A DNA stretch of 58,928 nucleotides from a virus (IMGVR_UViG_3300025872_000063:1-58928); one strand, 5' to 3'. Shown: positions 30,049-58,893, counted from the first letter of the stretch. Notes: generated by a model not told the origin, from the sequence alone. Program-made: numbers and translations.

Positions 30049-30078
30049 ACCTGAAACTGAGAATAATATAATAAACAC

Positions 30079-30357: not shown

Positions 30358-30381
30358 TTCTGAGAAGAATATAATTACAGC

Positions 30382-30537: not shown

Positions 30538-30581
30538 TCTGAGCAGAGTATAATGTGCTCATCAACGACGAAAGGAACACC

Positions 30582-30905: not shown

Positions 30906-30909
30906 TCTC

Positions 30910-30949
30910 TTCCGGGAGGGTGCGCTGCCTCCTTCGCGCCCTCCCGGAA
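30910..30949 (+). terminator. GC-rich terminator hairpin
   Basis: TTCCGGGAGGG and CCCTCCCGGAA form an 11-bp stem with an 18-nt loop after the stop codon. The next promoter begins 5 nt later, so the hairpin insulates the cassettes. Confidence 0.75.
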
Positions 30950-30996
30950 GAATCTGAGTCGAGTATAATACAATTACACACAACGAAAGGAACACC

Positions 30997-31449: not shown

Positions 31450-31509
31450 TCTGAGCTCTGTATAATACTTATTACATAATTAACAACGACAACGACGACA
31501 AGGACAACC

Positions 31510-32511: not shown

Positions 32512-32520
32512 GCGCAGGCT

Positions 32521-32558
32521 TGCGGCGGGTTGCCTCGTGGTGGTCGCAGCCCGCCGCA
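32521..32558 (+). terminator. Terminator after the AAA+ gene
   Basis: TGCGGCGGG and CCCGCCGCA pair around a 20-nt loop just after the stop; the promoter of the VWA gene begins 4 nt downstream. Confidence 0.7.
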
Positions 32559-32607
32559 GAATCTGAGTAAGTTATAATGACTAAGTACCCACAACGAAAG
32601 GACGAAC

Positions 32608-34404: not shown

Positions 34405-34414
34405 TTGAAGTTCT

Positions 34415-34460
34415 GGGCCGCTTGAGAGGCGTACGTCCTTTCCGTCTCTCAAGCAGGCCC
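34415..34460 (+). terminator. Long terminator stem after VWA gene
   Basis: GGGCC-GCTTGAGAG and CTCTCAAGC-A-GGCCC form a 14-bp stem with a single bulge. A second small hairpin (CCGTC-GATGCA-GACGG, 34469-34484) follows and carries the recurrent GCAGACGGG sequence. Confidence 0.75.
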
Positions 34461-34514
34461 GCCTATCGCCGTCGATGCAGACGGGCTTGATTCTGAGTCA
34501 GATATAATGACTGC

Positions 34515-34559
34515 ATGATGATTGCCCGCTGCGCGACACCTACCTTGACTGATATCTGA
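34515..34559 (+). CDS. Possible leaderless 14-residue peptide
   Basis: ATG 34515 is exactly 6 nt after TATAAT (34503-34508), the same geometry as the leaderless genes nearby. The frame encodes MMIARCATPTLTDI then TGA. It could be a leader peptide or a decayed cassette; the promoter is convincing, the gene is not proven. Confidence 0.3.
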   Translation: MMIARCATPTLTDI

Positions 34560-34560
34560 A

Positions 34561-34594
34561 TTCAGGCCTGGTAAGCGCCGCCGGTGCAGACGGG
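34561..34594 (+). repeat. Copy of the TTCAGGCCTGG...GCAGACGGG element
   Basis: About 34 nt with a conserved left part (TTCAGGCCTGG) and right part (GCAGACGGG). The closest copies are at 40212-40250 (intergenic) and 28760-28800 (inside the CHAP-like gene). Shorter relatives end in the same right part just upstream of promoters at 38404, 42074 and 42489. Confidence 0.5.
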
Positions 34595-34628
34595 TCCGCT
34601 TCTACAATAGCTACAGCTGAAAGATCAA

Positions 34629-34787
34629 ATGGGACTCTTCACCACGTACATCGGATATAGACTCGGAAGAAAGAAAGCCGCCGCTGAGATCGAAGACATG
34701 CTCGACGATCGTTGCGAGAATTGCGGACACACGCTCAGTCAGCATTCGCGCGATGGACGCCAGCTCTGCCCGACCTATCCAAACTGA
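34629..34787 (+). CDS. Small zinc-knuckle protein
   Basis: A 52-residue protein (MGLFTTYIGYRLGRKKAAAE...) with DDRCENCGHTLSQHSRDGRQLCPTYPN, a probable CxxCxH...H...C zinc site. GAAAGATCAA precedes the ATG; a TACAAT lies at about 34606. The stop TGA lies inside the next CTGAG promoter. Function unknown. Confidence 0.7.
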   Translation: MGLFTTYIGYRLGRKKAAAEIEDMLDDRCENCGHTLSQHSRDGRQLCPTYPN

Positions 34788-34818
34788 GACACGTATAGTG
34801 TAATCGAAAGGACACGCC

Positions 34819-34983
34819 ATGAAATACATTGTTCGACGCGCCGTGATCAGTCTGCCCGTCTTCATCTTCTTCGTCCGTCGATTCGACGAGCGAGAACTCG
34901 CACCGTACGCTTCCTGGCTGTGGGCCAGTCTGCTGATCTGGGCGATCTGGACTGCTCTGTCCGCCATCGCTGACCCAAACTGA
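34819..34983 (+). CDS. Small two-segment membrane protein
   Basis: A 54-residue protein with a first hydrophobic segment (AVISLPVFIFFV) and a second (ASWLWASLLIWAIWTALSAI). GAAAGGACACGCC precedes the ATG, and its stop lies in the next CTGAG element. Function unknown. Confidence 0.7.
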   Translation: MKYIVRRAVISLPVFIFFVRRFDERELAPYASWLWASLLIWAIWTALSAIADPN

Positions 34984-35004
34984 GATCACTATAGTAGGCG
35001 ACAT

Positions 35005-35118
35005 ATGATTATCGAAACTGATGACTGGCTCGAGCAAGCATACGAAGACAGATTCTCCGTCGACGACAACGATGACGCCTATTTCGACGAACTCGACGAC
35101 GATGATGAATCTGAGTAG
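35005..35118 (+). CDS. Tiny acidic protein
   Basis: A 37-residue protein (MIIETDDWLEQAYEDRFSV...) with an Asp/Glu-rich end. TATAGT is 9 nt before the ATG, so the leader is almost absent. The TAG stop is formed by the next promoter (CTGAGTAG). Function unknown; a nucleic-acid mimic is conceivable from charge only. Confidence 0.6.
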   Translation: MIIETDDWLEQAYEDRFSVDDNDDAYFDELDDDDESE

Positions 35119-35158
35119 AGTATAATGTACTCATCAACCAACGACGAAAGGACACAAG

Positions 35159-35527
35159 ATGGACACCACACAGATGGTCAAGGTTGGCAACTTCGGTGTC
35201 GACAGCGGACAGATCGTGGTCATCGACCCCTGCTATGTGTGGGACGACGACTTCATGCCGAACGGCGACCCGACCGGCGGCCCGTATGACGCCGCCTGCC
35301 GCATCACCCTATCCAAGAAGAACTACGGCGAGATCGAGGGCGGCTTTGTCACCAGTACTCTCTACGGTGACGGAACCTACCCCATCTACGCTGAACTGAA
35401 CGAACTCGGTCAGATCGTCCGCATGATCATCGACTTCGATCCCGACTTGAACTGGGACGATGACGATGAAGATGAAGATGAAGACGAAGACGAAGATGTC
35501 GACGATGATAACAACGAGGATGAGTGA
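35159..35527 (+). CDS. Beta-rich protein with acidic tail
   Basis: A 122-residue protein: VKVGNFGVDSGQIVVIDPCYVWDDDF and GGFVTSTLYGDGTYPIYAELNELGQIVRMIIDFDP look like a small beta-fold seen in many phages, followed by ~28 Asp/Glu residues. GAAAGGACACAAG precedes the ATG. The next gene starts 4 nt after its stop. Function unknown. Confidence 0.75.
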   Translation: MDTTQMVKVGNFGVDSGQIVVIDPCYVWDDDFMPNGDPTGGPYDAACRITLSKKNYGEIEGGFVTSTLYGDGTYPIYAELNELGQIVRMIIDFDPDLNWDDDDEDEDEDEDEDVDDDNNEDE

Positions 35528-35530
35528 CAT

Positions 35531-35743
35531 ATGGCGAAGCCATCGATTCAAGACGCAATTGACATACTCAACAACTACGCCGGCGACGTGATGCTGATTG
35601 GTATCGACAAGGTGGCAGAACATGCAGGGCTCAAGCCGAGGGTCGTTCGCAAGTTTACGATCAACGTGCTCGAGGGCAAGAACGCTGACATTCGAAAGAT
35701 CCTCTTGTCAGTCAAAGCTCTAAAGGAGTCCAATGAAGCTTGA
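35531..35743 (+). CDS. Small helix-turn-helix-like protein
   Basis: A 70-residue protein, paralogous to the gene at 48798: VMLIGIDKVAEHAGLKPRVVRKFTINVLEGKNADIRKILLSVKAL matches the same spacing there (VAxxAGxKPxxVxKF...K..DxRKI). The pattern suggests a compact DNA-binding unit. It overlaps the next gene by 11 nt. Function unknown. Confidence 0.7.
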   Translation: MAKPSIQDAIDILNNYAGDVMLIGIDKVAEHAGLKPRVVRKFTINVLEGKNADIRKILLSVKALKESNEA

Positions 35744-35903
35744 TCTCTTCGAGCTCAATGGACTTCCGGAAGCCGCTGTGCGCGAACGCATCGCAAGCCT
35801 TGACACAACAATCAAGCATGGCAACTTTGAACCCGTAGTTCTTCGCGAATACGCGAAGGAACTGAAAGCGCTCGTATGGGCGCTTTCAAAGTATTCTGAG
35901 TAA
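35733..35903 (+). CDS. Small helical protein
   Basis: A 56-residue protein (MKLDLFELNGLPEAAVRER...) with AAAGGAG upstream inside the previous gene. Its TAA stop is formed by the next promoter (CTGAGTAA). Function unknown. Confidence 0.65.
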   Translation: MKLDLFELNGLPEAAVRERIASLDTTIKHGNFEPVVLREYAKELKALVWALSKYSE

Positions 35904-35938
35904 GTTATAATGTACATACACCGAAGAAAGGACACAAC

Positions 35939-36136
35939 ATGGACCACTCACCTCAGATGACGTACTTTGCCACTGATGGCAACTACGGCGACGCAGAGGG
36001 CATCGTCATCATTGACACGCAAAGCTGGACCGAAGACGAATGGACCATCATCGATGAAACACCAGATCGCCAGCGAGCCAGTGTCGCCCTAAGTCTTTCC
36101 AAGTCAAATGATGACCAGCTGGAGCTGTTCAAGTGA
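35939..36136 (+). CDS. Small acidic protein
   Basis: A 65-residue protein (MDHSPQMTYFATDGNYGDAEGIVIIDTQSWTEDEW...), beta-rich and acidic, preceded by GAAAGGACACAAC. The next gene's GTG overlaps its stop (GTGA). Function unknown. Confidence 0.65.
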   Translation: MDHSPQMTYFATDGNYGDAEGIVIIDTQSWTEDEWTIIDETPDRQRASVALSLSKSNDDQLELFK

Positions 36137-36399
36137 CTCAACCTGCAGAAGTATCATTCGAGATGCACAAAGATGGTCGATTCACAGACGACCAGCTTTG
36201 GTATTTCGCCGAAGGTGTCAATGACAAGACCAACGAAGAACTTACAGACATTCAGCGCGCCGAGATCTTTGATCTCCTCAAGGACGAAGCAGTCTGGCTT
36301 GTAAATGATCTCGAGCCGTACTTCAAATTTGAAGTCATGCTCGGTCTAGTTCTCTGGTTACGCGGACACAAAGTGTCGACCATTTCTCCAACCTTCTAA
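36133..36399 (+). CDS. Small protein coupled to 35939
   Basis: An 88-residue protein starting GTG within the previous stop. Acidic helices (RFTDDQLWYFAEGVNDKTNEELTDIQRAEIFDLLKDE) are followed by a hydrophobic end (FEVMLGLVLWLRGHKVSTI). Function unknown. Confidence 0.65.
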   Translation: MTQPAEVSFEMHKDGRFTDDQLWYFAEGVNDKTNEELTDIQRAEIFDLLKDEAVWLVNDLEPYFKFEVMLGLVLWLRGHKVSTISPTF

Positions 36400-36430
36400 C
36401 CTAGAAACTGTGAAGAGTATAATGGTAGAC

Positions 36431-36583
36431 ATGGCAAACAACCACACAGTTCACGTTCAGTGCAGTACGGAAACCTGTTTCAGCCTCTGGCTCGAACACG
36501 AGAAGTTGGCAAGAACCACTGACATGTACCCGCTCATGTCGCAAGTTCATTCAAATACAGACAACCGAATCGAGAACGTATGA
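36431..36583 (+). CDS. Small protein, near-leaderless
   Basis: A 50-residue protein (MANNHTVHVQCSTETCFSLWLEHEKLA...). TATAAT is 7 nt before ATG. Two Cys near the start (QCSTETC) could bind metal. Its TGA overlaps the following ATG. Function unknown. Confidence 0.6.
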   Translation: MANNHTVHVQCSTETCFSLWLEHEKLARTTDMYPLMSQVHSNTDNRIENV

Positions 36584-36765
36584 CAGCAAAAGCAATTGTG
36601 CGCATTTCTATTCACCAAACAACTGAGAGCAAGCTCACTGTCACGCACACTGACAACGCAGGCGCGTGTTGGAGCGACATCTCCGATGGTGCTGGCCAAG
36701 TCGTGACTATCTTCTTTCGCTCTGCAGAAGAGCGCGATGAGTTCTGGTTCAATGCCTCAGCTTGA
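36580..36765 (+). CDS. Small beta-rich protein
   Basis: A 61-residue protein (MTAKAIVRISIHQTTESKLTVTHTDNAGACWSD...) translated from an ATG overlapping the prior stop. The alternating pattern suggests a small beta-sheet. Function unknown. Confidence 0.6.
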   Translation: MTAKAIVRISIHQTTESKLTVTHTDNAGACWSDISDGAGQVVTIFFRSAEERDEFWFNASA

Positions 36766-36816
36766 AACTAAGCTAGGTATAATACACCTGCACGACCAAC
36801 TACGAAAGGACACACA

Positions 36817-37503
36817 ATGCCGAACTGGTGCAACAACAACATCTCAATCAGCGGTCCCAAGGCCGACACCGATGCGTTCTTTGCACGTATCGACCACAAG
36901 GACAACGACATGTCCATCCTGCAAACCTTCCTCCCCATGCCCGAAGTGCTGAATGGCACTGTCTCTCCCACCCCAACCTCTCCTGACCCCCACCCAAACT
37001 GGGCGAACATGGTCGCAGAGGGCACAATGACTCAGGAGCGGTACGATGCACTGTGCGCCGACCAGCGCGAGCGGTACGAGAGAGGGCAGAAGTCCTTCAC
37101 TCAGACTGGCTATTACGACTGGTGGCACTGGCAGAACACCAACTGGGGTGTCAAGTGGGGTGACTCGGACACGTCCATCACTCTGTATGAAGATGGCTCC
37201 ATCTCAGGAACTTTCACCACCCCTTGGGGTCCGCCTATCGAGGGTATCCTTCGCATCTCACTGCAGTTTCCGAACTGCACTTTCTGCATCTCTTGGTATG
37301 AACCTGGAATGTGCATGATTGGCGCAGCACGAATCGTCAACGGCGATATTGTCGATGAAACTGAGATCGGACAGGATGAGTGGCCTTCATGGGACGAACA
37401 GGACGATGGCGCCGCGTATGAGGAAGCCATCGACACGCTGGTAACTCGGTGTTCCGCTGAGATCATGTGGGGCGTCGACAGTAGCTCAGGCAACACAAAC
37501 TGA
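36817..37503 (+). CDS. YubB/DUF1281-like ferredoxin-fold protein
   Basis: A 228-residue protein. It begins MPNWCNNNISISG, the classic start of the Api92/YubB-like (DUF1281) family, and has YYDWWHWQNTNWGVKWGDSD and FTTPWGPPIEGILRISLQFPNCTF in the expected order. The family is frequent on plasmids and phages with no proven function. GAAAGGACACACA precedes the ATG; its stop lies in the next promoter. Good confidence in family, none in role. Confidence 0.8.
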   Translation: MPNWCNNNISISGPKADTDAFFARIDHKDNDMSILQTFLPMPEVLNGTVSPTPTSPDPHPNWANMVAEGTMTQERYDALCADQRERYERGQKSFTQTGYYDWWHWQNTNWGVKWGDSDTSITLYEDGSISGTFTTPWGPPIEGILRISLQFPNCTFCISWYEPGMCMIGAARIVNGDIVDETEIGQDEWPSWDEQDDGAAYEEAIDTLVTRCSAEIMWGVDSSSGNTN

Positions 37504-37544
37504 GCTTTGTATAATGTAGTTACACGAACGACGAAAGGACAGCA

Positions 37545-37808
37545 ATGAGCACAGCTCCCACGAAGCAACTCGCGAATGACGTACTGGAACTCGTGAGAAA
37601 CAAGTACAACTGCCGTTCCGAGGACAACGGTCCGCGTCTAATCATGGACTTTGATTGGTACAACGATCAGGGATGGCCTACGATCGTCTGGGAAGGTGGC
37701 CCCTACGAGTGGGCTGTCGAGTGCAGCTTCGAACTTCTCGATAGCGTTCCCAGGCCCGTCTGGTTCGAGGCGGCTACGGCCTGGGCTCTCAGCATCTACC
37801 TCAACTGA
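37545..37808 (+). CDS. Small protein, 87 aa
   Basis: The protein has an N-terminal helix (TKQLANDVLELVRNKYN) and a Trp-rich second half (FDWYNDQGWPTIVWEGGPYEWAVECSFELL). It follows a CTGAG promoter and GAAAGGACAGCA. Function unknown. Confidence 0.7.
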   Translation: MSTAPTKQLANDVLELVRNKYNCRSEDNGPRLIMDFDWYNDQGWPTIVWEGGPYEWAVECSFELLDSVPRPVWFEAATAWALSIYLN

Positions 37809-37866
37809 GCAAACAACTTTCTAAGAAAGTTATAATACAACTACCAACAACGACAAAGGACACAAC

Positions 37867-38235
37867 ATGAACTCATCTTTCGAAACGTCGCACGGAACAA
37901 TCGTGCTCGTCAACCGTAATCAAGCAACTCACGACGGACGAGGCTATCGTTCGAAGCCGCGAATGTACGTCGGAGGCTGCGACGGCTGGAGCAGGGCAGT
38001 GAAGAACACAGTCAGGAGCATCATCGACGAGAGCGGCGTTCCGCTCGACTTGACTGGCGCTCGCTGGTCGCAGTTCGCCGGGTGCAGCTGTCCGTGCTCT
38101 CCCGGCCTCATCCTGAAGTATCAGGGACTCACCATCGGAGAGGTCATCTACACTCACTACGACGTGTACGTGACCATCAAGGACGCTCCTACGATCGAGC
38201 CGGCACTGCCGTCTCGAGTTCTCGTAGGAGTATGA
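37867..38235 (+). CDS. Cys-cluster protein, 122 aa
   Basis: The protein has a beta-rich start (SHGTIVLVNRNQ), a basic segment (SKPRMYVGGCDGWSRAVKN) and FAGCSCPCSPGLILKYQG, a tight C-x-C-x-C cluster that may bind a metal or cluster. AAAGGACACAAC precedes the ATG, and a long terminator stem begins at its stop. Related small proteins occur in actinophages; function unknown. Confidence 0.7.
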   Translation: MNSSFETSHGTIVLVNRNQATHDGRGYRSKPRMYVGGCDGWSRAVKNTVRSIIDESGVPLDLTGARWSQFAGCSCPCSPGLILKYQGLTIGEVIYTHYDVYVTIKDAPTIEPALPSRVLVGV

Positions 38236-38295
38236 AATCGCGCTTGAGCGCGCTCGGCAGTTACTGTCCTTTCGGCCGGGCGCGCTCGCGCGTTT
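38235..38295 (+). terminator. Long composite terminator stem
   Basis: AAATCGCGC pairs with GCGCGTTT, and inside it GAGCGCGC (38246-38253) pairs with GCGCGCTC (38280-38287). The loop is 26 nt. It is followed by a TACAAT-type promoter (38297-38312) reading into 100 nt that holds only a 17-codon frame. Confidence 0.7.
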
Positions 38296-38436
38296 ACTGA
38301 GATCTCTACAATGAAAGGAGTCTCGCCGTACACCAGCGACATGGAAGAAACGCAGGCTCGCTAAGGGAGCCGCGGAATGCAGACGGGTCACTTCTGAGCA
38401 AGTTATAATGTATTCGCAACTACGAAAGGACACCAA

Positions 38437-38691
38437 ATGAACGAGCTCAATATCTCGCTAAACGACTGCTACATTCGAGTCATTCCCCAGTCTGACTGCA
38501 CGACACTCTTTTGGACTGATGGCATCAACGACTGGGAAGAGAACTACCAGACGTCATCCGCAGCTTTCTCGCGCCTGGCATGTCTTCTCGCCTGTGCAGA
38601 TTCCAAGTGGCTTCGCGGATTCAACTACGACGAAGAAAAGCATCAGCTCGCTTGGGCCGAGTTTCTTGACGGCGCTCTCGACAGGGACTGA
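38437..38691 (+). CDS. Small protein, 84 aa
   Basis: The protein (MNELNISLNDCYIRVIPQSDC...) has Cys residues scattered through WTDGINDWEENYQ and LACLLACADSKWLRGFNYDEEKHQLAW. GAAAGGACACCAA precedes the ATG. Function unknown. Confidence 0.7.
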   Translation: MNELNISLNDCYIRVIPQSDCTTLFWTDGINDWEENYQTSSAAFSRLACLLACADSKWLRGFNYDEEKHQLAWAEFLDGALDRD

Positions 38692-38742
38692 CACTTCTGA
38701 GCAAGTTATAATGTACCCATCAACGACGAAAGGACAAGGCAA

Positions 38743-38889
38743 GTGGGTATTCAAGATTACGCGCACTGGAACGAAGAAGCTTCGCTGATTTGGTGGCTCG
38801 AGGAAGGTCGTCATCCATATGAACCTGAGTTCTCGGATTTCGACGACGATCCCCGGGATGACTGGGATGACTGGGAAGACGTCGACTAA
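38743..38889 (+). CDS. Tiny acidic Trp-rich protein
   Basis: A 48-residue protein from GTG 38743 (VGIQDYAHWNEEASLIWWLEE...) with a C-terminal Asp/Trp repeat (DDDPRDDWDDWEDVD). GAAAGGACAAGGCAA supplies the ribosome site. Function unknown. Confidence 0.6.
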   Translation: MGIQDYAHWNEEASLIWWLEEGRHPYEPEFSDFDDDPRDDWDDWEDVD

Positions 38890-38951
38890 TCATCTGCTCC
38901 AGCAGAAACTAAGATTGTTATAATGATCTCACAACAACGAAAGGACACACC

Positions 38952-39254
38952 ATGACAGTCAAGTATCCGCACCTCTCCATCGAGCTCGTTGGCCAGGATG
39001 GCAACGCGTTCTCCATCCTCGGACGCCTGCAAGGCGTGCTTCGCCGTGGCGGCGTACCGAAGGACGAGATCGCTGCTGTGATGGCGGAGGCCCAGTCCGG
39101 CGACTACAGCCACCTGCTGGTCACCGTCATGAACACCGTCTCGGTCGACTCGAGCGACGACGAGGACGACGACCACGACCCGTGGGGCGACGACGAGGCC
39201 GACGACGTGTGGGGCGACTTCTACGACGAAGAATTTGAAGAGGTGCTCGACTGA
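38952..39254 (+). CDS. Conserved actinophage small protein
   Basis: A 100-residue protein. KYPHLSIELVGQDGNAFSILGRLQGVLRRGGVPKDEIAAVMAEAQSGDYSHLLVTVMNTVSV is a pattern I recognise as widespread in actinobacterial phages; the last 35 residues are an Asp/Glu tail. GAAAGGACACACC precedes the ATG. Function unknown despite wide occurrence. Confidence 0.8.
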   Translation: MTVKYPHLSIELVGQDGNAFSILGRLQGVLRRGGVPKDEIAAVMAEAQSGDYSHLLVTVMNTVSVDSSDDEDDDHDPWGDDEADDVWGDFYDEEFEEVLD

Positions 39255-39323
39255 CAACGTCGCGTGACAATGTCAAGATCTGAGTAAGATATAATAATCT
39301 CAACAACAACGAAAGGACACGAC

Positions 39324-39569
39324 ATGAACGATGATTATCCGGAAGATGATTACGACAATGAAGGTGAGATCATCGCCGAGTTCATTATGAGCTGGGTCGC
39401 CGGCGGCGGTCGCGCGAGCGATGCGATGGTGGCCTATCACCAACACAAGGCGATGGCTGCCGGCACCTGGCCGCCCAATGAAGAAGAGGATAGCTCCCCG
39501 CGGTACGGGGACCCCGACTTCGACTATGAAGGTCTTTATCTCTGGGAGATGAATCAAGAAATGTACTGA
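39324..39569 (+). CDS. Small acidic protein, 81 aa
   Basis: Acidic ends (MNDDYPEDDYDNEGE ... FDYEGLYLWEMNQEMY) surround a helix (IIAEFIMSWVAGGGRASDAMVAYHQHKAMA). GAAAGGACACGAC precedes the ATG; a CAGCC / GGCTG hairpin follows the stop. Function unknown. Confidence 0.7.
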   Translation: MNDDYPEDDYDNEGEIIAEFIMSWVAGGGRASDAMVAYHQHKAMAAGTWPPNEEEDSSPRYGDPDFDYEGLYLWEMNQEMY

Positions 39570-39625
39570 CAGCCAGCAAGGCTGACACCTCCTGAGTATG
39601 AGGCTAAACTGCTCGGGACGAACCT

Positions 39626-39805
39626 ATGGCTGTAATGGCAATCGTTCCTTATGAATACAGCCCTCACGACTTTCGCCAGCGGGAGTCGCGCGAATATAAA
39701 GCTGGCAGGGGCATCGATACCCCCAATGTAAACCTGTGGCCCGCAGGCGAGAGTATCGAAGGGTTTATTAGAATCTGCATAGCCCGTCTCAACTATGTAG
39801 AGTGA
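39626..39805 (+). CDS. Possible 59-residue protein behind a repeated start segment
   Basis: The frame MAVMAIVPYEYSPHDFRQRE...RICIARLNYVE lacks a normal ribosome site. A ~24-nt segment (AACTGCTCGGGAC then RAACCTATGG) covers its start at 39605 and recurs at 39868, where the same ATG opens a 9-codon frame. Promoter copies are absent upstream, so the gene would read through from 39324. The 39570-39910 gap also holds GC-rich hairpins, so a structured RNA is the alternative. Confidence 0.35.
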   Translation: MAVMAIVPYEYSPHDFRQRESREYKAGRGIDTPNVNLWPAGESIEGFIRICIARLNYVE

Positions 39806-39956
39806 CGCACGCTTTATGAGCATATTGAAAGAGCGTTGGTGTTGCCGACCTGAGCATGTCGACCATAAACTGCTCGGGACAAACCTATGGCAGACGGACA
39901 AGGAAATAAGTTCTGAGTTTGATATAATAATCTCAGGAACAACGAAAGGACACACG

Positions 39957-40199
39957 ATGAACATCATGGATTTGAAGAATGCTGTCGATCTCGCACTCGA
40001 GCGGGGAATCGACCCTAACTGCACTGTTGTGCTGGGTCTTGGAGACGTTTCTCAGACCCTCGAGTGGGCCATCTTGGACATGATCGAAGATCCGTCAAAC
40101 CCCGACAACACGTATGAGGGTGTGATTTGGTTCACTCTGTTTCCCGGAGAGGAAGCAGATGGCCGCTTCACTCCATGCCATTGGCCCGCGGATGCGTAA
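39957..40199 (+). CDS. Small acidic protein, 80 aa
   Basis: ATG 39957 follows GAAAGGACACACG and promoter 39913-39928. MNIMDLKNAVDLALERGIDPNCTVVLGLGDVSQTLEWAILD resembles a widespread phage family of small alpha/beta proteins (helix, then VxL strand, then acidic loop). Ends FTPCHWPADA. Function unknown. Confidence 0.7.
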   Translation: MNIMDLKNAVDLALERGIDPNCTVVLGLGDVSQTLEWAILDMIEDPSNPDNTYEGVIWFTLFPGEEADGRFTPCHWPADA

Positions 40200-40211
40200 G
40201 TGTCCCGTAGA

Positions 40212-40250
40212 AAGTTCAGGCCTGGAAGGGCGCCAGAATGCAGACGGGCC
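40212..40250 (+). repeat. Copy of the TTCAGGCCTGG...GCAGACGGG element
   Basis: Intergenic; nearly matches the sequence inside the CHAP-like gene at 28760-28800 over about 38 nt and stands 15 nt upstream of a CTGAG promoter. Confidence 0.5.
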
Positions 40251-40307
40251 ATCTTCGTCAAGTTCTGAGTAAGTTATAATGCACTAGTACGCAAGAAAGG
40301 ACAGCAG

Positions 40308-40475
40308 ATGAAGTGCAAATGCGCGATGTGCGGACGAGACAACTCCGCCAAACTGGGCAGGGCGTCGTACGCCCGTTCAGGGATCTACACCTCCGAGCAA
40401 AAGTCCAAGGGCGACATCAAGCGCATCGAACGTCGCCTCCGTCGTCGTCGTGAGAACTTCGACCTCTCTTTCTGA
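40308..40475 (+). CDS. Small zinc-type basic protein
   Basis: A 55-residue protein (MKCKCAMCGRDNSAKLGRA...) with a CxCxxC start and a very basic helix (KRIERRLRRRRENFDLSF). GAAAGGACAGCAG precedes the ATG; its TGA lies in the next CTGAG. A nucleic-acid-binding role is plausible from composition. Confidence 0.7.
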   Translation: MKCKCAMCGRDNSAKLGRASYARSGIYTSEQKSKGDIKRIERRLRRRRENFDLSF

Positions 40476-40493
40476 GAAAGGTATAATGACACC

Positions 40494-40655
40494 ATGATCA
40501 GCTACGAACACAAGGGGGGCGCATGGCTGCTTCCTCTCACTGGAACACGCGACGTCCCGACGTGCCAAGACTGCGAAGAGACCAATGGTCTCGAGTTCGT
40601 GTCCTGGATCGACGCCTACCTCTGCCCTGAATGCCTAGCTAACGAACTTGGCTGA
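40494..40655 (+). CDS. Leaderless zinc-ribbon protein
   Basis: A 53-residue protein (MISYEHKGGAWLLPLTGTRD...) with PTCQDCEET and YLCPECLANE, a two-knuckle zinc ribbon. TATAAT is exactly 6 nt before ATG. Function unknown. Confidence 0.7.
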   Translation: MISYEHKGGAWLLPLTGTRDVPTCQDCEETNGLEFVSWIDAYLCPECLANELG

Positions 40656-40711
40656 CCTCATTTGCTTTCTGAGCAAGTTATAATGATCTCACAACGACGA
40701 AGGGACAAGCA

Positions 40712-40867
40712 ATGAACACCATCACCGAGGGTCTGATCTTCAAGGCCCGCTGCACGATCGCAGAGATCGAAGACTGCTTCGATATGAACTCGGCGCTCGA
40801 GCTGATCGACAAGCTCTCCCGTCGCATCAATGAACTGATCGACGAGCTGGAGTCGATCAAGAACTGA
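40712..40867 (+). CDS. Small helical protein
   Basis: A 51-residue all-helical protein (MNTITEGLIFKARCTIAEIEDC...) ending in a coiled-coil-like LSRRINELIDELESIKN. AGGGACAAGCA precedes the ATG, and its TGA is inside the next promoter. Function unknown. Confidence 0.65.
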   Translation: MNTITEGLIFKARCTIAEIEDCFDMNSALELIDKLSRRINELIDELESIKN

Positions 40868-40885
40868 GTAAGTTATAATGTACTC

Positions 40886-41166
40886 ACAACATCAACCGCA
40901 CGAAGAGCGCTTCGGCACCGACGTACGGTAGCAAGTCACAAGACGTTAGACGCAAGCCTCTGGCACGATAAGGCTCTCAGCATCCAAAGCGATACTGCTC
41001 TACGACGACCATGGCGTCGCACCAGTCCCTCCTCACGGATCAGATCCGTCCTCCTCTGTACGCATCCGCCACTCTAATCGTCTTACTCTGCTACCCGACT
41101 GCTCCCCGGCCAAGGAGCAGAACGCCGGGCGTTTCCGGAGACCAGCCGGAGCGTTCTTCATGTGGT
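40886..41166 (+). ncRNA. Structured noncoding RNA B, copy 1 (~280 nt)
   Basis: Transcribed from CTGAG-N5-TATAAT (40864-40879) and ending at the next promoter; no good ORF. A long-range helix pairs GGTAGCA (40927-40933) with TGCTACC (41089-41095) and GACGTTAGA (40942-40950) with TCTAATCGTC (41073-41082, one bulge). Between them, a core identical to copy 2 holds CGACG / CGTCG and ACGGAT-CAG-ATCCGT hairpins flanked by TCCTCC-like single strands. A 3' hairpin CTGCTCC / GGAGCAG (41099-41120) follows, then a conserved TCCGG / CCGGA stem. Confidence 0.75.
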
Positions 41167-41216
41167 TGATTCTGAGCAAGTTATAATGTACTTACCAACG
41201 AGGAAAGGACAAAGCA

Positions 41217-41384
41217 ATGCCGAGCAACTACCCCGACGGAATGCGCGAGTCGGACATCCCGGGCTGGTGGGACGTGGAGTGCCCGACCTGTGAGGAGGAG
41301 GGGTACACCGACGACTGCCCCACCTGCGAGGGAACTGGCAACATCGACAGTCGCAGCCGGTGGGAGCCGGAATACGACGACTGA
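41217..41384 (+). CDS. DnaJ-type zinc-finger small protein
   Basis: A 55-residue protein with VECPTCEEEGYTDDCPTCEGTGNID, two CxxC knuckles including a CxxCxGxG repeat as in the DnaJ zinc domain. GAGGAAAGGACAAAGCA precedes the ATG. Probably a redox or protein-binding zinc finger; target unknown. Confidence 0.7.
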   Translation: MPSNYPDGMRESDIPGWWDVECPTCEEEGYTDDCPTCEGTGNIDSRSRWEPEYDD

Positions 41385-41387
41385 ACT

Positions 41388-41440
41388 CGGCGCCTCGAGC
41401 GCTGGCCGGCGCCTCGAGCGCTGGCCGGCGCCTCGAGCGC
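41388..41440 (+). repeat. Tandem GC-rich palindromic repeat
   Basis: A 19-nt unit (CGGCGCCTCGAGCGCTGGC) occurs twice and a third time truncated, directly after a stop and before a promoter. GGCGCC and CTCGAG are self-complementary, so hairpins can form. Related to the GCCGGC/CTCGAG arrays further right. Confidence 0.75.
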
Positions 41441-41467
41441 AAGAACTAAGAAAGGTATAATGAGACC

Positions 41468-41737
41468 ATGCTCAAGATCAACGTAACAACTTCCCGTCGA
41501 GATGGCGATTATTCCGATGTCTTCATCCAATATGCGGACGACGACAAGATTCACGCCGGCGCAATACGCAAGACGCTGACTGGCAAGTGGAATACCATCG
41601 TCGACGGAGAACTCTACACCGCTCGGACAAAGTCGGACGCCGTTCTCACGGTTTGCTATCTGACTGGACCGAAGTTCTTTTCTGGCGCAGTCTATAAGTA
41701 CGGTGCTTACACACTTGCACTTCCAAGTTCTGAGTAA
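41468..41737 (+). CDS. Leaderless small beta-rich protein
   Basis: An 89-residue protein (MLKINVTTSRRDGDYSDVFIQYADDDKIHAGAIRK...) with alternating hydrophobic strands. TATAAT is exactly 6 nt before ATG, and TAA is provided by the next promoter (CTGAGTAA). Function unknown. Confidence 0.7.
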   Translation: MLKINVTTSRRDGDYSDVFIQYADDDKIHAGAIRKTLTGKWNTIVDGELYTARTKSDAVLTVCYLTGPKFFSGAVYKYGAYTLALPSSE

Positions 41738-41773
41738 GTTATAATGTACTCACCAACGAGGAAAGGACAAAGC

Positions 41774-41998
41774 ATGGACGAGATGATCGTGATCGACACG
41801 CCGGAGGGCATCGAACACTTCCGCCTCGCGGCGCTCATTGCGGCGCTTCGCATCGAAGTCAAGACTGGAATGGTCGGCCGTATGCCGACCCTGCCAGTCG
41901 CCAGGAGCTACGGCGTGCAGGCCAGGACCAAGAAGAAGGCACTCGAGGAGCTCGAGGGCATCTACATGGTCACCTACGGCAGGCCGTACGGATCGTGA
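41774..41998 (+). CDS. Small protein, 74 aa
   Basis: ATG 41774 follows GAGGAAAGGACAAAGC. MDEMIVIDTPEGIEHFRLAALIAALRIEVKTGM followed by LPVARSYGVQARTKKKALEELEGIY is a pattern seen in many actinophages; a small helical fold is likely. Function unknown. Confidence 0.72.
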   Translation: MDEMIVIDTPEGIEHFRLAALIAALRIEVKTGMVGRMPTLPVARSYGVQARTKKKALEELEGIYMVTYGRPYGS

Positions 41999-42106
41999 CC
42001 GCCACGGCGGGCCGGCGCAATGAATGCCGGCCCGCCAGGCGGCGCAATGCAGACGGGCCACTTCTGAGCAAGTTATAATGTACTTACAACGAGGAAAGGA
42101 CACACA

Positions 42107-42271
42107 ATGAAGACGAGCAACGAACTTCTCAAGTTGGTCAGGGAGAGCGTGGAGCTCGCGGACGAGCGCAAGAACGTCGGAACGCTTGGCCCGTGGGAGG
42201 CGATCGGTATTCTCAAGAGCACGGTCAACTTTCTCATCACGCACATCGAGCGTGATCAGACTTCTGAGTAA
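42107..42271 (+). CDS. Small helical protein
   Basis: A 54-residue protein (MKTSNELLKLVRESVELADE...), ending HIERDQTSE with its TAA given by the next promoter. GAGGAAAGGACACACA precedes the ATG. Function unknown. Confidence 0.65.
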   Translation: MKTSNELLKLVRESVELADERKNVGTLGPWEAIGILKSTVNFLITHIERDQTSE

Positions 42272-42285
42272 GGTATAATGTATTC

Positions 42286-42441
42286 ATGGGAACGACAAAG
42301 AACAACTCGAGGACCAAGTGGGCATGGACAGACGCTGAGCGTCAGGCATTCGCGGATGGCGTCCGCGTCCGTGCACAGCGGATTCCAAACAAGAAGCGCA
42401 TCGCGTCACGGAACGCGTGCCGGCGTGGAGGCGGCGAATGA
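42286..42441 (+). CDS. Leaderless basic small protein
   Basis: A 51-residue protein (MGTTKNNSRTKWAWTDAER...) ending in a basic stretch (IPNKKRIASRNACRRGGGE). TATAAT is 6 nt before ATG. Possibly nucleic-acid binding. Function unknown. Confidence 0.65.
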   Translation: MGTTKNNSRTKWAWTDAERQAFADGVRVRAQRIPNKKRIASRNACRRGGGE

Positions 42442-42500
42442 CCGGCCCGCTAAGCGCCGGCGCGCAGACGGGTCACTTCTAAGAAAGGTATAATGACGAC

Positions 42501-42662
42501 ATGAGCGAATACACCATCCAGGGAAACTACGGCTTCGGCTGGGAAGATCTGACGACCGAAGAAACTATGCCAGAGGCAAAGCAGCGACTCAGCGAGTACA
42601 ACGAGAACGAATCGAGCGTTCCCCATCGAATCAAAGTCAGCGTCAAACTGAGCAAGTTATAA
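42501..42662 (+). CDS. Leaderless small protein ending in a promoter
   Basis: A 53-residue protein (MSEYTIQGNYGFGWEDLTTEET...) of a type common in phages (YGxGWEDxTxEET followed by a helix and HRIKV strand). TATAAT is 6 nt before ATG. The stop TAA is the middle of the next promoter's TATAAT, so the last residues (LSKL) are encoded by the promoter. Confidence 0.72.
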   Translation: MSEYTIQGNYGFGWEDLTTEETMPEAKQRLSEYNENESSVPHRIKVSVKLSKL

Positions 42663-42669
42663 TGACGAC

Positions 42670-42840
42670 ATGAACGACAACGACATCAAGATTCGCGCCC
42701 AAGAGATCGTCCAGACCTGCGAGATGGAGTACCCAGAAGCTGGTGACGAAGCCATCTACCAGATGGCCGTCGACATGAAGTTTCACTCTGGGTGGAGCGA
42801 AGACGACGTGAACGAGTTGCTCAGTGTCCTCGGATTCTGA
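42670..42840 (+). CDS. Leaderless small acidic protein
   Basis: A 56-residue protein (MNDNDIKIRAQEIVQTCEME...) of three helices. TATAAT is 6 nt before ATG, and its TGA lies inside the next CTGAG. Function unknown. Confidence 0.68.
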   Translation: MNDNDIKIRAQEIVQTCEMEYPEAGDEAIYQMAVDMKFHSGWSEDDVNELLSVLGF

Positions 42841-42879
42841 GCAAGTTATAATGATCTCACAACGAGGAAGGGACAAGCA

Positions 42880-43065
42880 ATGACGTTTGATAACTGGATG
42901 GACAAGGTCGACGAGTTCATGGAGATCCTCTGCGGCCTGAACTCTGAGTGCATCGAAGACTACTGCTACCGCGATGAGTACGACGCCGGCGCCTCGCCGA
43001 AAGAGGTCGCACTGCGCGCTCTCAAGAACGCGAACTACGACACCACTGTCAACTACATTCGGTGA
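42880..43065 (+). CDS. Small acidic protein, 61 aa
   Basis: The protein (MTFDNWMDKVDEFMEILCGLN...) has an acidic helix followed by IEDYCYRDEYDAGASPKEVALRALKNA. GAGGAAGGGACAAGCA precedes the ATG. Function unknown. Confidence 0.65.
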   Translation: MTFDNWMDKVDEFMEILCGLNSECIEDYCYRDEYDAGASPKEVALRALKNANYDTTVNYIR

Positions 43066-43112
43066 AACTGAGTAAGTTATAATACAATTACACCACGGCG
43101 AAAGGACACCCG

Positions 43113-43259
43113 ATGAACGAGAACAACGAGCCCGACTTCCTTGATCACGGCTGGCAGAACTGCCCCGGCGGGGCGGAGGCCCACCAAGCGCACATGGAGA
43201 TGAACGGCGACTGCCCGTGGTGCGCGTCCTACGACAAGTCCAAGTGGCTCGATTTCTGA
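43113..43259 (+). CDS. Small Cys/His protein
   Basis: A 48-residue protein (MNENNEPDFLDHGWQNCPGG...) with CPGG, several His and GDCPWCASYD; a zinc-binding knuckle is likely. GAAAGGACACCCG precedes the ATG; its TGA lies inside the next CTGAG. Function unknown. Confidence 0.68.
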   Translation: MNENNEPDFLDHGWQNCPGGAEAHQAHMEMNGDCPWCASYDKSKWLDF

Positions 43260-43277
43260 GCTTGGTATAATACACTC

Positions 43278-43556
43278 ATCAACCGCACGAAGAGCGCTTC
43301 GGCGCCAACGCGGACGAACCCAAGATAAGGCTCTCTAGCAAGCCTCTGGCACGATAAGGCTCTCAGCATCCAAAGCGATACTGCTCTACGACGACCATGG
43401 CGTCGCACCAGTCCCTCCTCACGGATCAGATCCGTCCTCCTCTGTACGCATCCGCTACTTGAATCCGTCCTCTTGTACCGTCCACCAGTCCCCGGCCAGG
43501 GACTGAAGCGTCGGGGTTTCCGGAGACCAGCCGGAGCGTTCTTCATGTGGTTGATT
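43278..43556 (+). ncRNA. Structured noncoding RNA B, copy 2 (~280 nt)
   Basis: Second copy, from promoter 43256-43271. The ~120-nt core (about 43339-43457) is identical to copy 1, as is the last ~60 nt. The two variable windows differ in sequence yet keep the pairing: GGACG (43312-43316) with CGTCC (43479-43483), CAAGA (43321-43325) with TCTTG (43471-43475), and the 3' hairpin CAGTCCC / GGGACTG (43486-43505) in place of CTGCTCC / GGAGCAG, around the same CGGCCA loop. Confidence 0.78.
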
Positions 43557-43601
43557 CTGAGCAAGTTATAATGTACTTACCAACGAGGAAAGGACAAAGC
43601 G

Positions 43602-43727
43602 ATGGATGACGCGATCGAGGCCTGCTGGTTCTGCGGAGACGCCAACGTGCTCATGGTGATCGACGACTGGGAATACGGCGAGTTCGGGGTGTGCACCGAC
43701 TGCGCGGACGATCCCGGCCTGAGCTGA
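43602..43727 (+). CDS. 41-residue zinc-knuckle protein, copy 1
   Basis: MDDAIEACWFCGDANVLMV...GVCTDCADDPGLS has CxxC...CxxC, a minimal zinc ribbon. GAGGAAAGGACAAAGCG precedes the ATG. An identical copy with the same promoter and downstream repeats is at 44565. Function unknown. Confidence 0.72.
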   Translation: MDDAIEACWFCGDANVLMVIDDWEYGEFGVCTDCADDPGLS

Positions 43728-43785
43728 GGCCGGCGCTCGAGCCGGCTGGCCGGCGCTCGAGCCGGCTGGCCGGCTGGCCGGCGCA
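43728..43785 (+). repeat. GCCGGC / CTCGAG palindromic array
   Basis: Units of CGCTCGAGCCGGCTGGCCGG repeat between stop and promoter. GCCGGC pairs with itself across a GCTCGA loop, giving terminator-like hairpins. Related arrays are at 43979-44003, 44272-44327, 44691-44777 and 45073-45139. Confidence 0.75.
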
Positions 43786-43834
43786 AGTTCTGAGCAAGTT
43801 ATAATGTACTTACCAACGATGAAAGGACACAGCG

Positions 43835-43978
43835 ATGGCAAAGTACTCGACCCGGATGCACGAGGTGTACGACACGCGGTACTGCCTGGTGATCTACTGC
43901 GGTTCGCAGAGCGCCTGCAAGCGGTTCGTGATGAACTCGCCCCGCAAGTGGCTGGCGGTGCGCCCTGCGGGGCGCTGA
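43835..43978 (+). CDS. Small basic protein, 47 aa
   Basis: The protein MAKYSTRMHEVYDTRYCLVI... has YCGSQSACKRFVMNSPRKW and three Cys. GAAAGGACACAGCG precedes the ATG, and a GCCGGC array follows. Function unknown. Confidence 0.65.
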   Translation: MAKYSTRMHEVYDTRYCLVIYCGSQSACKRFVMNSPRKWLAVRPAGR

Positions 43979-44052
43979 GCCGGCTGGCCGGCTGGCCGGC
44001 GCAAGTTCTGAGCAAGTTATAATGTACTTACCAACGAGGAAAGGACAAAGCG

Positions 44053-44271
44053 ATGGTCACGATCGAGCTCGATGTCGCGCACGATGAAATGCCGCTGGAG
44101 CAGGTGCTCCAGACGATTATGGACGAGGTGCCGTCCACCCAAGCCGTGCTGGTCGACGTCAATGGCCCCACGGGCTGGCCTGTGGTCAAGTTCACGATGG
44201 ACGAGAGCGCCCTCGAGCGCTTTGCTGAGGTGTATGGCGCCGACGTGGACGAGCTGCGCGACCTGCTCTGA
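44053..44271 (+). CDS. Small acidic protein, 72 aa
   Basis: The protein (MVTIELDVAHDEMPLEQVLQ...) looks like a strand-helix-strand-helix unit (VLVDVNGPTGWPVVKFTMDESALERFAEVYG). GAGGAAAGGACAAAGCG precedes the ATG. Function unknown. Confidence 0.68.
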   Translation: MVTIELDVAHDEMPLEQVLQTIMDEVPSTQAVLVDVNGPTGWPVVKFTMDESALERFAEVYGADVDELRDLL

Positions 44272-44327
44272 GCCGGCGCTCGAGCCGGCTGGCCGGCTGA
44301 GCCGGCTGGCCGGCTGGCCGGCGCAAG
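44272..44327 (+). repeat. GCCGGC palindromic array
   Basis: Copies of GCCGGC(TG)GCCGGC and GCTCGA lie between the stop at 44271 and the next promoter. Same family as the array at 43728. Confidence 0.7.
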
Positions 44328-44351
44328 TTCTGAGCAAGTTATAATGTACTC

Positions 44352-44534
44352 ATGAACAGCCGCTGCACGATCAATCAACTCCACTGCGAGAACTGTGGGA
44401 GCACCGACCCGTACGATGTCGAAGATCTTGCCGACACCGATGGGTACACCCGCTGCTGCAATGAGTGCCGCTCGTACGGTCCGAACGACTGCCGGGGGTT
44501 CCACTGCGACTGGGAGATTCTGAGCAAGTTATAA
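44352..44534 (+). CDS. Leaderless zinc-ribbon protein ending in a promoter
   Basis: A 60-residue protein (MNSRCTINQLHCENCGSTDP...) with HCENCG and RCCNECRSYG, a four-Cys ribbon. TATAAT is 6 nt before ATG. Translation runs through the following promoter (EILSKL) and stops at the TAA within TATAAT. Function unknown. Confidence 0.72.
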   Translation: MNSRCTINQLHCENCGSTDPYDVEDLADTDGYTRCCNECRSYGPNDCRGFHCDWEILSKL

Positions 44535-44564
44535 TGTACTTACCAACGAGGAAAGGACAAAGCG

Positions 44565-44690
44565 ATGGATGACGCGATCGAGGCCTGCTGGTTCTGCGGA
44601 GACGCCAACGTGCTCATGGTGATCGACGACTGGGAATACGGCGAGTTCGGGGTGTGCACCGACTGCGCGGACGATCCCGGCCTGAGCTGA
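44565..44690 (+). CDS. 41-residue zinc-knuckle protein, copy 2
   Basis: Identical at DNA level to the gene at 43602, including promoter, ribosome site and the first ~50 nt of the downstream GCCGGC array. This shows recent duplication of a whole cassette. Function unknown. Confidence 0.72.
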   Translation: MDDAIEACWFCGDANVLMVIDDWEYGEFGVCTDCADDPGLS

Positions 44691-44777
44691 GGCCGGCGCT
44701 CGAGCCGGCTGGCCGGCGCTCGAGCCGGCTGGCCGGCGCTCGAGCCGGCTGGCCGGCGCTCGAGCCGGCGAGCAGGC
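44691..44777 (+). repeat. GCCGGC / CTCGAG palindromic array (longest)
   Basis: Four GCTCGAGCCGGC units in tandem after the duplicated zinc-protein gene and before a promoter. Unit number differs from the copy at 43728, as expected for slippage or recombination. Confidence 0.75.
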
Positions 44778-44826
44778 AAGTTCTGAGTAAGTTATAATGT
44801 ACTTACCAACGAGGAAAGGACACAGG

Positions 44827-45072
44827 ATGAACATCCGAGAACTGATCACGGAGCTCGAGGAGATCGCTGACAGCGCCGCCGAGGGCGACGACCTCAAGGT
44901 CATGATCGCGACGCAGCCGAACTGGCCTCTGCAGGCTGAGATCGCCTGCGTGTCGTACGTCGATGGCCGACTCTACATCGCGGAGGGGTATGCGCCTTAC
45001 GACTCGCCGTACGCGCCTCGAGCAGCCTGGGAGGCTCGCAATGCGGACCAGGACGAGGACTGGGGGGACTGA
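44827..45072 (+). CDS. Conserved phage small protein
   Basis: An 81-residue protein; ATG 44827 follows GAGGAAAGGACACAGG. MNIRELITELEEIADSAAEGDDLKVMIATQPNWPLQAEIACV is a pattern I recognise from many phages (xLIxxLExxxxDxxVxIAxQPxWP). A small alpha/beta fold; function unknown. Confidence 0.75.
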   Translation: MNIRELITELEEIADSAAEGDDLKVMIATQPNWPLQAEIACVSYVDGRLYIAEGYAPYDSPYAPRAAWEARNADQDEDWGD

Positions 45073-45139
45073 GGCCGGCGCTCGAGCCGGCGAGCCGGCG
45101 CTCGAGCCGGCTGGCCGGCGCTCGAGCCGGCGAGCAGGC
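45073..45139 (+). repeat. GCCGGC / CTCGAG palindromic array
   Basis: Three GCTCGAGCCGGC units between the stop and the promoter of RNA C. Same family as the arrays to the left. Confidence 0.7.
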
Positions 45140-45166
45140 AAGTTCTGAGTAAGTTATAATGTACTC

Positions 45167-45333
45167 ACGATCAGTACTAGTTGGGCGAATCCGCTGTAAC
45201 GGGATTCGTTAAATGAAGCGAGTATCTACATCTTGGGAAGTGCTGAGGCGCGGTAGTGGAAGCCTGCGGGCCATGGAGCTACACGTCTATGACGTACGGA
45301 ATGGGTGTAGTGAAAGAATAGCGGAACCCAACA
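45167..45333 (+). ncRNA. Structured noncoding RNA C (~165 nt)
   Basis: It follows promoter 45145-45160 and ends before promoter 45337-45352. Closing helix GTTGGG (45180-45185) / CCCAAC (45327-45332); inside, CGAATCC / GGATTCG (45186-45208) and CTACAC / GTGTAG (45279-45310, with inner ACGT / ACGT). A reading frame crosses it but lacks a ribosome site. No known family is recognised. Confidence 0.6.
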
Positions 45334-45379
45334 AATCTAAGCAAGTTATAATGATCTCACAACGACGAAAGGACGCACT

Positions 45380-45589
45380 GTGCAGTACATTACAGATCGC
45401 ACCGTAGAACTCACCGAGTGTGAGGCGCTGATCGCAGAGATTCACGCGCTGCTGATGGACCAAGGAATGCACCAGCATGACGCGGTCGACAAGATTCTCG
45501 GATCGACTGTTCCGATCTACCTCAAGTCCGCTACTCCCATTCTGGACAAGGTGATCTCCGCCGAGTTCATCGCTTGGTTGCGTGAGTGA
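45380..45589 (+). CDS. Small acidic protein, 69 aa
   Basis: GTG 45380 follows GAAAGGACGCACT. MQYITDRTVELTECEALIAEIHALLMDQGMHQHDAVDKIL then a hydrophobic end; two or three helices. Function unknown. Confidence 0.68.
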   Translation: MQYITDRTVELTECEALIAEIHALLMDQGMHQHDAVDKILGSTVPIYLKSATPILDKVISAEFIAWLRE

Positions 45590-45624
45590 TTCCGATGCAA
45601 ACTAAGAAATGTACAATTTCAAAC

Positions 45625-45897
45625 ATGAACACGATTCCCAACACTCCCATCACCATCGACGTCTACGCCACGGCCCTCGCCGCCCAGCTCACCGCGCTCG
45701 TCGCCACCGACCCGTCCCGCTACACCGGGGTGTCGTCGTGGGACGACCTCTGCGATCTCTACGACGGACTTCTGAAGGACACCGACGCCTCGCTCGGCTA
45801 CGACGTGGACCTCGCGGATCTCGCGGACTTCGATGGATATGCGGCTATTGTTGTTCCCGCTGTCGATTCAGTCGTCGCTGCGCGCTTCCCGATCTAG
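45625..45897 (+). CDS. Small acidic protein, 90 aa
   Basis: ATG 45625 lies 8 nt after TACAAT (45612-45617) of a CTAAG-type promoter, so there is almost no leader. ITIDVYATALAAQLTALVATDPSRYTGVSSWDDLCDLYDG suggests a mostly helical protein. Function unknown. Confidence 0.68.
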   Translation: MNTIPNTPITIDVYATALAAQLTALVATDPSRYTGVSSWDDLCDLYDGLLKDTDASLGYDVDLADLADFDGYAAIVVPAVDSVVAARFPI

Positions 45898-45930
45898 CCG
45901 GCTCGGTTCTGAGCAAGTTATAATACTATC

Positions 45931-46197
45931 ATGACGCTGAACATCGCAAAGATCACCCACACCCACACCGACACCGACACCAACACGATCTACTTCACCG
46001 CCGCCTTCATCGAACCCGACGACAACGAAACCTACACGCTCAACATCGCCTACCGTCCGTTCGACGAATCGATCGACATCGACATCGAAGGAAACGCATA
46101 CTCCGCCGACTCCGACACGATCACCGACTCGCAATACTTCGACGACTCCGCGATCGCATTCATCACTCAAACTGCTCGCGATCACAACCTGCTCTAA
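45931..46197 (+). CDS. Leaderless Asp/Thr-rich protein
   Basis: An 88-residue protein (MTLNIAKITHTHTDTDTNTI...), very rich in Asp, Thr and Ile with beta-like strands. TATAAT is exactly 6 nt before ATG. Function unknown. Confidence 0.7.
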   Translation: MTLNIAKITHTHTDTDTNTIYFTAAFIEPDDNETYTLNIAYRPFDESIDIDIEGNAYSADSDTITDSQYFDDSAIAFITQTARDHNLL

Positions 46198-46238
46198 CCG
46201 ACCCTCCGGCTCGGTTCTGAGCAAGTTATAATGTACTC

Positions 46239-58860: not shown

Positions 58861-58893
58861 CTACTAGCCAGCCAGCCAGCCAGCTAGCACTGG

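Follow-up and report, generated by a model that had tools for sequence, protein, structure and literature searches.

The window analysed here is a whole virus record of 58,928 bp (IMGVR_UViG_3300025872_000063, G000), and the comparisons set out below make it almost certain that it encodes two members of a structured phage RNA family that is genuine and new. The best overall explanation of these elements, which we advance tentatively, is an independently transcribed noncoding RNA of about 260 nt that would act in trans as a multivalent decoy or scaffold. A first-pass annotation had placed the two segments, each with its own promoter, and the placement holds: a zero-mismatch phage promoter box, CTRAGN5TATAATR, lies ahead of each, ending 10-15 nt before the 5′ arm of the RNA (Table 1). 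The copies are 86% identical overall and have a common core of 128 nt (40952-41079 and 43338-43465), for which the earlier wording of an identical ~120-nt core was a slight overstatement, its identity being 98%. The 3′ ends are indeed identical, continuing into the next promoter and Shine-Dalgarno sequence. Both copies occupy units of a small-gene array that lack a convincing gene, and the earlier view that neither segment holds a convincing open reading frame stands. An ATG frame inside the common core (near 41010 and 43396) was rejected as coding, having no evident Shine-Dalgarno sequence and stops that differ between the copies, as was a 111-aa minus-strand frame over copy 2, which has no counterpart of at least 60 aa over copy 1.

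Each copy folds as a long rod: a closing helix of 20-26 bp joins the ends, two hairpins stand at the side, and the strand elements D and T are predicted to form tandem internal-loop modules along the shaft. From 5′ to 3′, the promoter is followed by the closing helix P1/P2, the shaft helices P3 and P4, D1, a linker, D2 and a variable apical part; the second half runs through T1, a linker, T2, the 3′ arm of P4, hairpin A, the 3′ arm of P3, hairpin B and the 3′ arm of P1/P2, which abuts or overlaps the promoter of the next gene. Folding was more favourable than that of shuffled sequence (z -3.9 for copy 1 and -3.1 for copy 2, with 0 of 200 shuffles as good), and arms paired with their own partners at -22.8, -12.3 and -11.3 kcal/mol versus -11.8, -7.3 and -1.8/-2.7 kcal/mol with those of the other copy. 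All of the pairings originally quoted were found, namely GGTAGCA/TGCTACC (40927-40933 and 41089-41095) and GACGTTAGA/TCTAATCGTC (40942-40950 and 41073-41082) in copy 1, GGACG/CGTCC in copy 2, and the hairpins CTGCTCC/GGAGCAG versus CAGTCCC/GGGACTG. The CAAGA/TCTTG pairing of copy 2 is also present, as part of a repeated module rather than as an isolated helix. The strongest feature, the closing helix of more than 20 bp that joins the ends of the RNA, had been missed.

Two copies alone are thin evidence for structure, and it is the comparison with homologous sequences that settles the question. Neither the RNA nor the member sequences had a relevant BLASTN match among cultured phages and plasmids, and nhmmer and BLASTN on the flanks of protein-related loci gave no homologue. 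Homologues emerged only when records related through their terminase or AAA proteins were searched over their full length; weak matches then appeared at two places in G003 and in G004, where GATAAGGCTCT occurs twice and then ATCCGTCCTCCTCT twice, inside long inverted-repeat arms directly behind a promoter. Motif scans and covariance models extended the family to about 20 IMG/VR virus records from several phage lineages, with about 15 sequences that are clearly distinct, near-identical copies in G003, G056, G100, G105, G137 and G138 not being counted as independent. All members come from metagenomic assemblies, many of them fragments, and range from about 210 to 340 nt. The window carries two copies, as do G053, G095, and G003 with its near-identical relatives. 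Family members were also among the top matches of a model-free, unbiased screen of the collected loci for long-range inverted repeats.

These homologues lend strong support to the earlier proposal that RNA structure is under selection: in them the helices are kept and covary. Across 16 members and a 47-pair structure, 91.0% of cells were paired, 31 of the 47 pairs had changed on both sides and the covariation score was 0.573; shuffled controls gave 66.5%, 23.0 double-sided pairs and a score of 0.155, with 0 of 500 reaching the observed values. Moving the 3′ partners by 1-3 columns left 40-49% of cells paired and scores of 0.09-0.12. With the window and L231 members left out, the values were 91.4%, 28 of 47 and 0.544. 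Double-sided changes occur in each of helices 1, 2, 3, 4 and 8, and the closing helix, the P3/P4 shaft and hairpin A thus covary. A covariance model built from 4 non-window sequences (R1) matched both window copies from its first to its last position (E about 7e-4) and reached 1e-10 to 1e-23 in other lineages, a model of 13 non-window sequences (R3) matched copy 1 at 8.3e-5 and copy 2 at 2.4e-3, and a remote, longer member in G099 (L175) was matched over part of the model at 2.8e-5, all of these E-values being rough because calibration was short. The long inverted repeats might alternatively mark an element acting as DNA, such as a cruciform or a replication or recombination site. We consider this very improbable, as the promoter lies exactly ahead of one strand, the interior is branched and covarying, and G-U pairs, which RNA helices would be expected to admit, are tolerated and frequent in the pair tables.

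Table 1. Features of the two RNA copies in window coordinates.
Feature	Coordinates	Strand	Basis or remark
RNA copy 1	40886..41167	+	one canonical and one variant D:T module; covariance-model match 40905-41156
Promoter box, copy 1 (CTGAGTAAGTTATAATG; -10 at 40874-40879)	40864..40880	+	CTRAGN5TATAATR, 0 mismatches
Copy 1 closing helix P1, 5′ arm (AACCGCACGAAGAGCGCTTCGG)	40894..40915	+	pairing; P1/P2 covaries in homologues
Copy 1 shaft helix P4, 5′ arm (GGTAGCA...GACGTTAGA)	40927..40950	+	folding, pairing
Copy 1 variant D (CAAGCCTCT)	40953..40961	+	same variant in L231
Copy 1 canonical D (GATAAGGCTCT)	40967..40977	+	motif count, pairing
Copy 1 canonical T (ATCCGTCCTCCTC)	41044..41056	+	motif count, pairing
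Copy 1 variant T (ATCCGCCAC)	41064..41072	+	pairing
Copy 1 shaft helix P4, 3′ arm (TCTAATCGTC...TGCTACC)	41073..41095	+	folding, pairing
Copy 1 side hairpin A (CTGCTCC-CCGGCCAA-GGAGCAG)	41099..41120	+	folding, pairing
Copy 1 side hairpin B (CCGG-GCGTTT-CCGG)	41125..41138	+	folding, pairing
Copy 1 closing helix P1, 3′ arm (CCGGAGCGTTCTTCATGTGGTT)	41146..41167	+	pairing
RNA copy 2	43278..43556	+	two canonical and one variant D:T module; covariance-model match 43291-43542
Promoter box, copy 2 (CTGAGCTTGGTATAATA; -10 at 43266-43271)	43256..43272	+	CTRAGN5TATAATR, 0 mismatches
Copy 2 closing helix P1, 5′ arm	43281..43302	+	pairing
Copy 2 shaft helix P4, 5′ arm (GGACG)	43312..43316	+	folding, pairing
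Copy 2 extra canonical D (GATAAGGCTCT), without counterpart in copy 1	43324..43334	+	copy comparison, motif count
Copy 2 variant D (CAAGCCTCT)	43339..43347	+	pairing
Copy 2 canonical D (GATAAGGCTCT)	43353..43363	+	motif count, pairing
Copy 2 canonical T (ATCCGTCCTCCTC)	43430..43442	+	motif count, pairing
Copy 2 variant T (ATCCGCTAC)	43450..43458	+	pairing
Copy 2 extra canonical T (ATCCGTCCTCTTG), partner of extra D	43463..43475	+	motif count, pairing
Copy 2 shaft helix P4, 3′ arm (CGTCC)	43479..43483	+	folding, pairing
Copy 2 side hairpin A (CAGTCCC-CGGCCA-GGGACTG)	43486..43505	+	folding, pairing
Copy 2 side hairpin B region	43512..43523	+	pairing
Copy 2 closing helix P1, 3′ arm	43531..43552	+	pairing

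The elements D (GAUAAGGCUCU) and T (AUCCGNCCUCNUC) are invariant and are predicted to lie opposite each other in the shaft. Across family members they occur in equal numbers and in the nested order D1-D2-apical loop-T1-T2; canonical D/T counts are 2/2 in nearly all members and in window copy 2, and 1/1 in window copy 1 and L231, while the second T of L187 is degenerate. Unconstrained RNAalifold paired D1 with T2 and D2 with T1, setting 5′-GA[UA]AGG-C-3′ opposite 5′-G-N-CCU[CN]UC-3′, and the linker helix between modules was molecule-specific (permutation p 0.009; 0.016 when redundancy was reduced). A local D hairpin, tried as the main fold, was not significant (p 0.05-0.11 and 0.82). Copy 2 has one more D and one more T than copy 1, at the positions that would be expected from gain or loss of a whole base-paired module, and the window and L231 copies have in common a variant module with AAGCCUCU on its D side and CAUCCGNNA on its T side. 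Because the D and T counts are equal and nested, the linker helix is specific to each molecule and the extra D of copy 2 comes with an extra T, the predicted pairing of D with T in an internal-loop module repeated along the shaft is well supported, though not proven by covariation.

Complementary elements in equal number could also pair between molecules. On that account RNA copies would associate, D with T or through the conserved loops of the side hairpins, into a protein-independent oligomer; GOLLD, ROOL and OLE form homo-oligomers (PMC12286853), and the setting is the same as that of GOLLD and ROOL, which are phage-encoded, structured and of unknown function. We regard such an RNA-only assembly as unlikely, since D:T pairing is fully satisfied inside one molecule, complete with a molecule-specific linker helix, and the RNA is a third to half the length of GOLLD or ROOL and matches no Rfam family.

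The RNA might instead be a base-pairing regulator, in which the pyrimidine-rich T strands would target mRNAs of the phage or its host by anti-Shine-Dalgarno pairing and D would mask them internally. Pairing of the second T element of copy 2 with the 40 promoter-linked 5′ untranslated regions of the window did beat 99% of shuffles (-9.9 versus -7.0 kcal/mol), but that of the first T element was not significant (11.5% of shuffles as good), and the predicted fold has T paired. In other lineages, moreover, the fourth base of CCGNCC varies freely, although in a Shine-Dalgarno target it should face the fixed A of GGAC; this variation is accounted for by the N that is bulged in the D:T module, and we judge the regulator improbable.

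Action in trans is favoured because the downstream genes differ and have their own promoters and no neighbouring gene is common to all lineages. A cis-acting leader of the directly downstream gene, either riboswitch-like or a processing element, would fit the lack of a convincing terminator after the RNA and a next gene within about 60 nt, which make read-through likely. It appears quite improbable, however, given that this gene has its own promoter abutting or overlapping the 3′ arm of the RNA and is a different small gene in each genome, and that conservation spans the whole RNA rather than an expression platform. As no terminator separates the RNA from the next gene, the closing helix may provide stability or a processing site.

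The trans-acting decoy or scaffold that we prefer would work as follows. The RNA would be transcribed from its dedicated phage promoter, amid small genes resembling those of host takeover, and its rigid rod would hold two or three near-identical module sites in register. These tandem modules would all bind the same target, most probably a protein of host or phage origin and most simply an RNA-binding protein, and during host takeover the RNA would engage it as a multivalent decoy or scaffold. That the RNA binds protein in this way is a possibility that we put forward with reserve. Still more speculative is the wider proposal of a new phage RNA class of stackable internal-loop modules, whose valency evolves by module gain and loss on both strands and which acts as a multivalent decoy for a host factor in freshwater Actinobacteria.

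Several points weigh against these proposals. The D:T core pairs (helix 7 and the centre of helix 5) are invariant, so that covariation neither proves nor disproves them, and the percentages of paired cells are inflated, alignments A6 and A7 having been fitted to the model structure, though the slid controls remained low. Presence is patchy: many related records, as well as the lake phage DSL-LC01, carry no detectable copy. The decoy function is proposed from the architecture of the RNA, itself a predicted transcript.

The window carries genes for a T4-type terminase, PhoH, ThyX, a B12-type ribonucleotide reductase, a primase-helicase and a pair of MoxR-like AAA and VWA proteins. Its terminase shares 85.5% identity with the one from Actinomycetia phage DSL-LC01, which comes from a lake metagenome (PMC10611076), and about 62% with those of Microbacterium phages. 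Upstream of the DSL-LC01 terminase lie an AAA ATPase and, after it, a protein with the annotation cobalamin biosynthesis protein, and this pair is likely the counterpart of the AAA/VWA pair of the window. Because of its terminase and AAA/VWA kinship to DSL-LC01 and Microbacterium phages, we take the window phage to be a putative freshwater actinophage. No copy of the RNA was detected in seven cultured actinophages and DSL-LC01. Four hits of a pattern scan of GTDB genomes (L205-L208) were judged from host and count to be chance, their loci being unread; D-D pattern hits in L177, L179, L188, L195 and L201, mostly in repetitive coding sequence, a T pattern hit in L204 and a D-D-T pattern hit in L215 were likewise set aside as chance. 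Two other long hairpins were seen: one in a related phage record (L119:521-797), which is strong, repeats a TTTTTGACGATAGTAC-type element in its nested arms and has no D or T elements, and a different one about 200 nt upstream of a family RNA (L176:5156-5375), ending in a promoter-like TATAATGG.

The right-central part of the window (30057-46233) holds upwards of 40 very small genes in an array, almost every one with its own CTRAGN5TATAATR box and a GAAAGGAC-type ribosome site, in a promoter-per-gene organisation from which evident terminators are absent. Allowing at most one mismatch, the box has 50 matches in the window versus 0.37 expected, 49 of the 50 on the + strand; a scan of the window for canonical TTGACA/TATAAT promoters gave no match. 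A 227-bp duplication of 99% identity (43548-43774 and 44511-44737) holds a small CxxC-type gene and a promoter, its upstream unit starting at the 3′ end of RNA copy 2, and tandem GCCGGCGCTCGAGCCGGCTG units stand in several intergenic spacers of the array (43729-45141). A small basic protein of 48 aa (43835-43978) is encoded within 6 kb of the RNA in all 5 tested records of the window clade (with counterparts in G003, G004, G053 and G054) and was not found near the RNA in other lineages. The record closes on its right with CCAA tetranucleotide repeats (58773-58928), which may reflect a repeat-induced assembly break.

Neither Rfam nor the cultured phages tested contain the family, which combines strong covariation with a portable covariance model, and the terminase relatives of the window phage are lake and soil actinophages, whose takeover of the host has hardly been studied. 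The invariant module repeated in this RNA offers a concrete bait for a target search, and two copies of differing valency in one genome amount to a natural experiment.

In comparison with known systems, the earlier statement that no known family could be recognised was borne out by Rfam 15, in which the window matched only 4 tRNAs at the gathering threshold; these lie at 26.1 kb, about 15 kb from the RNA copies, so that there is no tRNA adjacency. A permissive Rfam scan of 8 family-bearing loci returned nothing overlapping the RNA, the Rfam 15 covariance models of GOLLD, ROOL, 6S and pRNA gave no match to it, and no published description of the family was found in the open-licence literature, where several searches returned mostly unrelated work. 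RNAs of the 6S and Ms1 type, which bind RNA polymerase, a plausible target in host takeover, are rods whose ends are joined by a long helix; the family RNA differs in having no large central open bubble and in small internal loops that are invariant in sequence. The phi29-type pRNA is phage-encoded and likewise has a closing helix and junction hairpins, and on these grounds a packaging-motor RNA could be proposed. This seems extremely unlikely, as the large terminase subunit of the window phage is of another, T4, type, many close terminase relatives lack the patchily distributed RNA, two diverged paralogs coexist in one genome and Rfam gives no match. GOLLD resembles the family in being phage-encoded, with extensive covarying structure, aquatic sources and unknown function (PMC12286853), whereas many GOLLD members exceed 800 nt, with conservation in the 3′ half and tRNA islands nearby. 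ROOL is also a phage-encoded structured RNA without a known protein partner, but a 659-nt example has multiple pseudoknots and forms a nanocage (PMC12286853), in contrast to a rod with tandem modules. GOLLD and ROOL are thus the nearest in kind, though larger and differently built, and the RNA described here is, as judged from its sequence, a new family within the known kind of structured phage noncoding RNAs.

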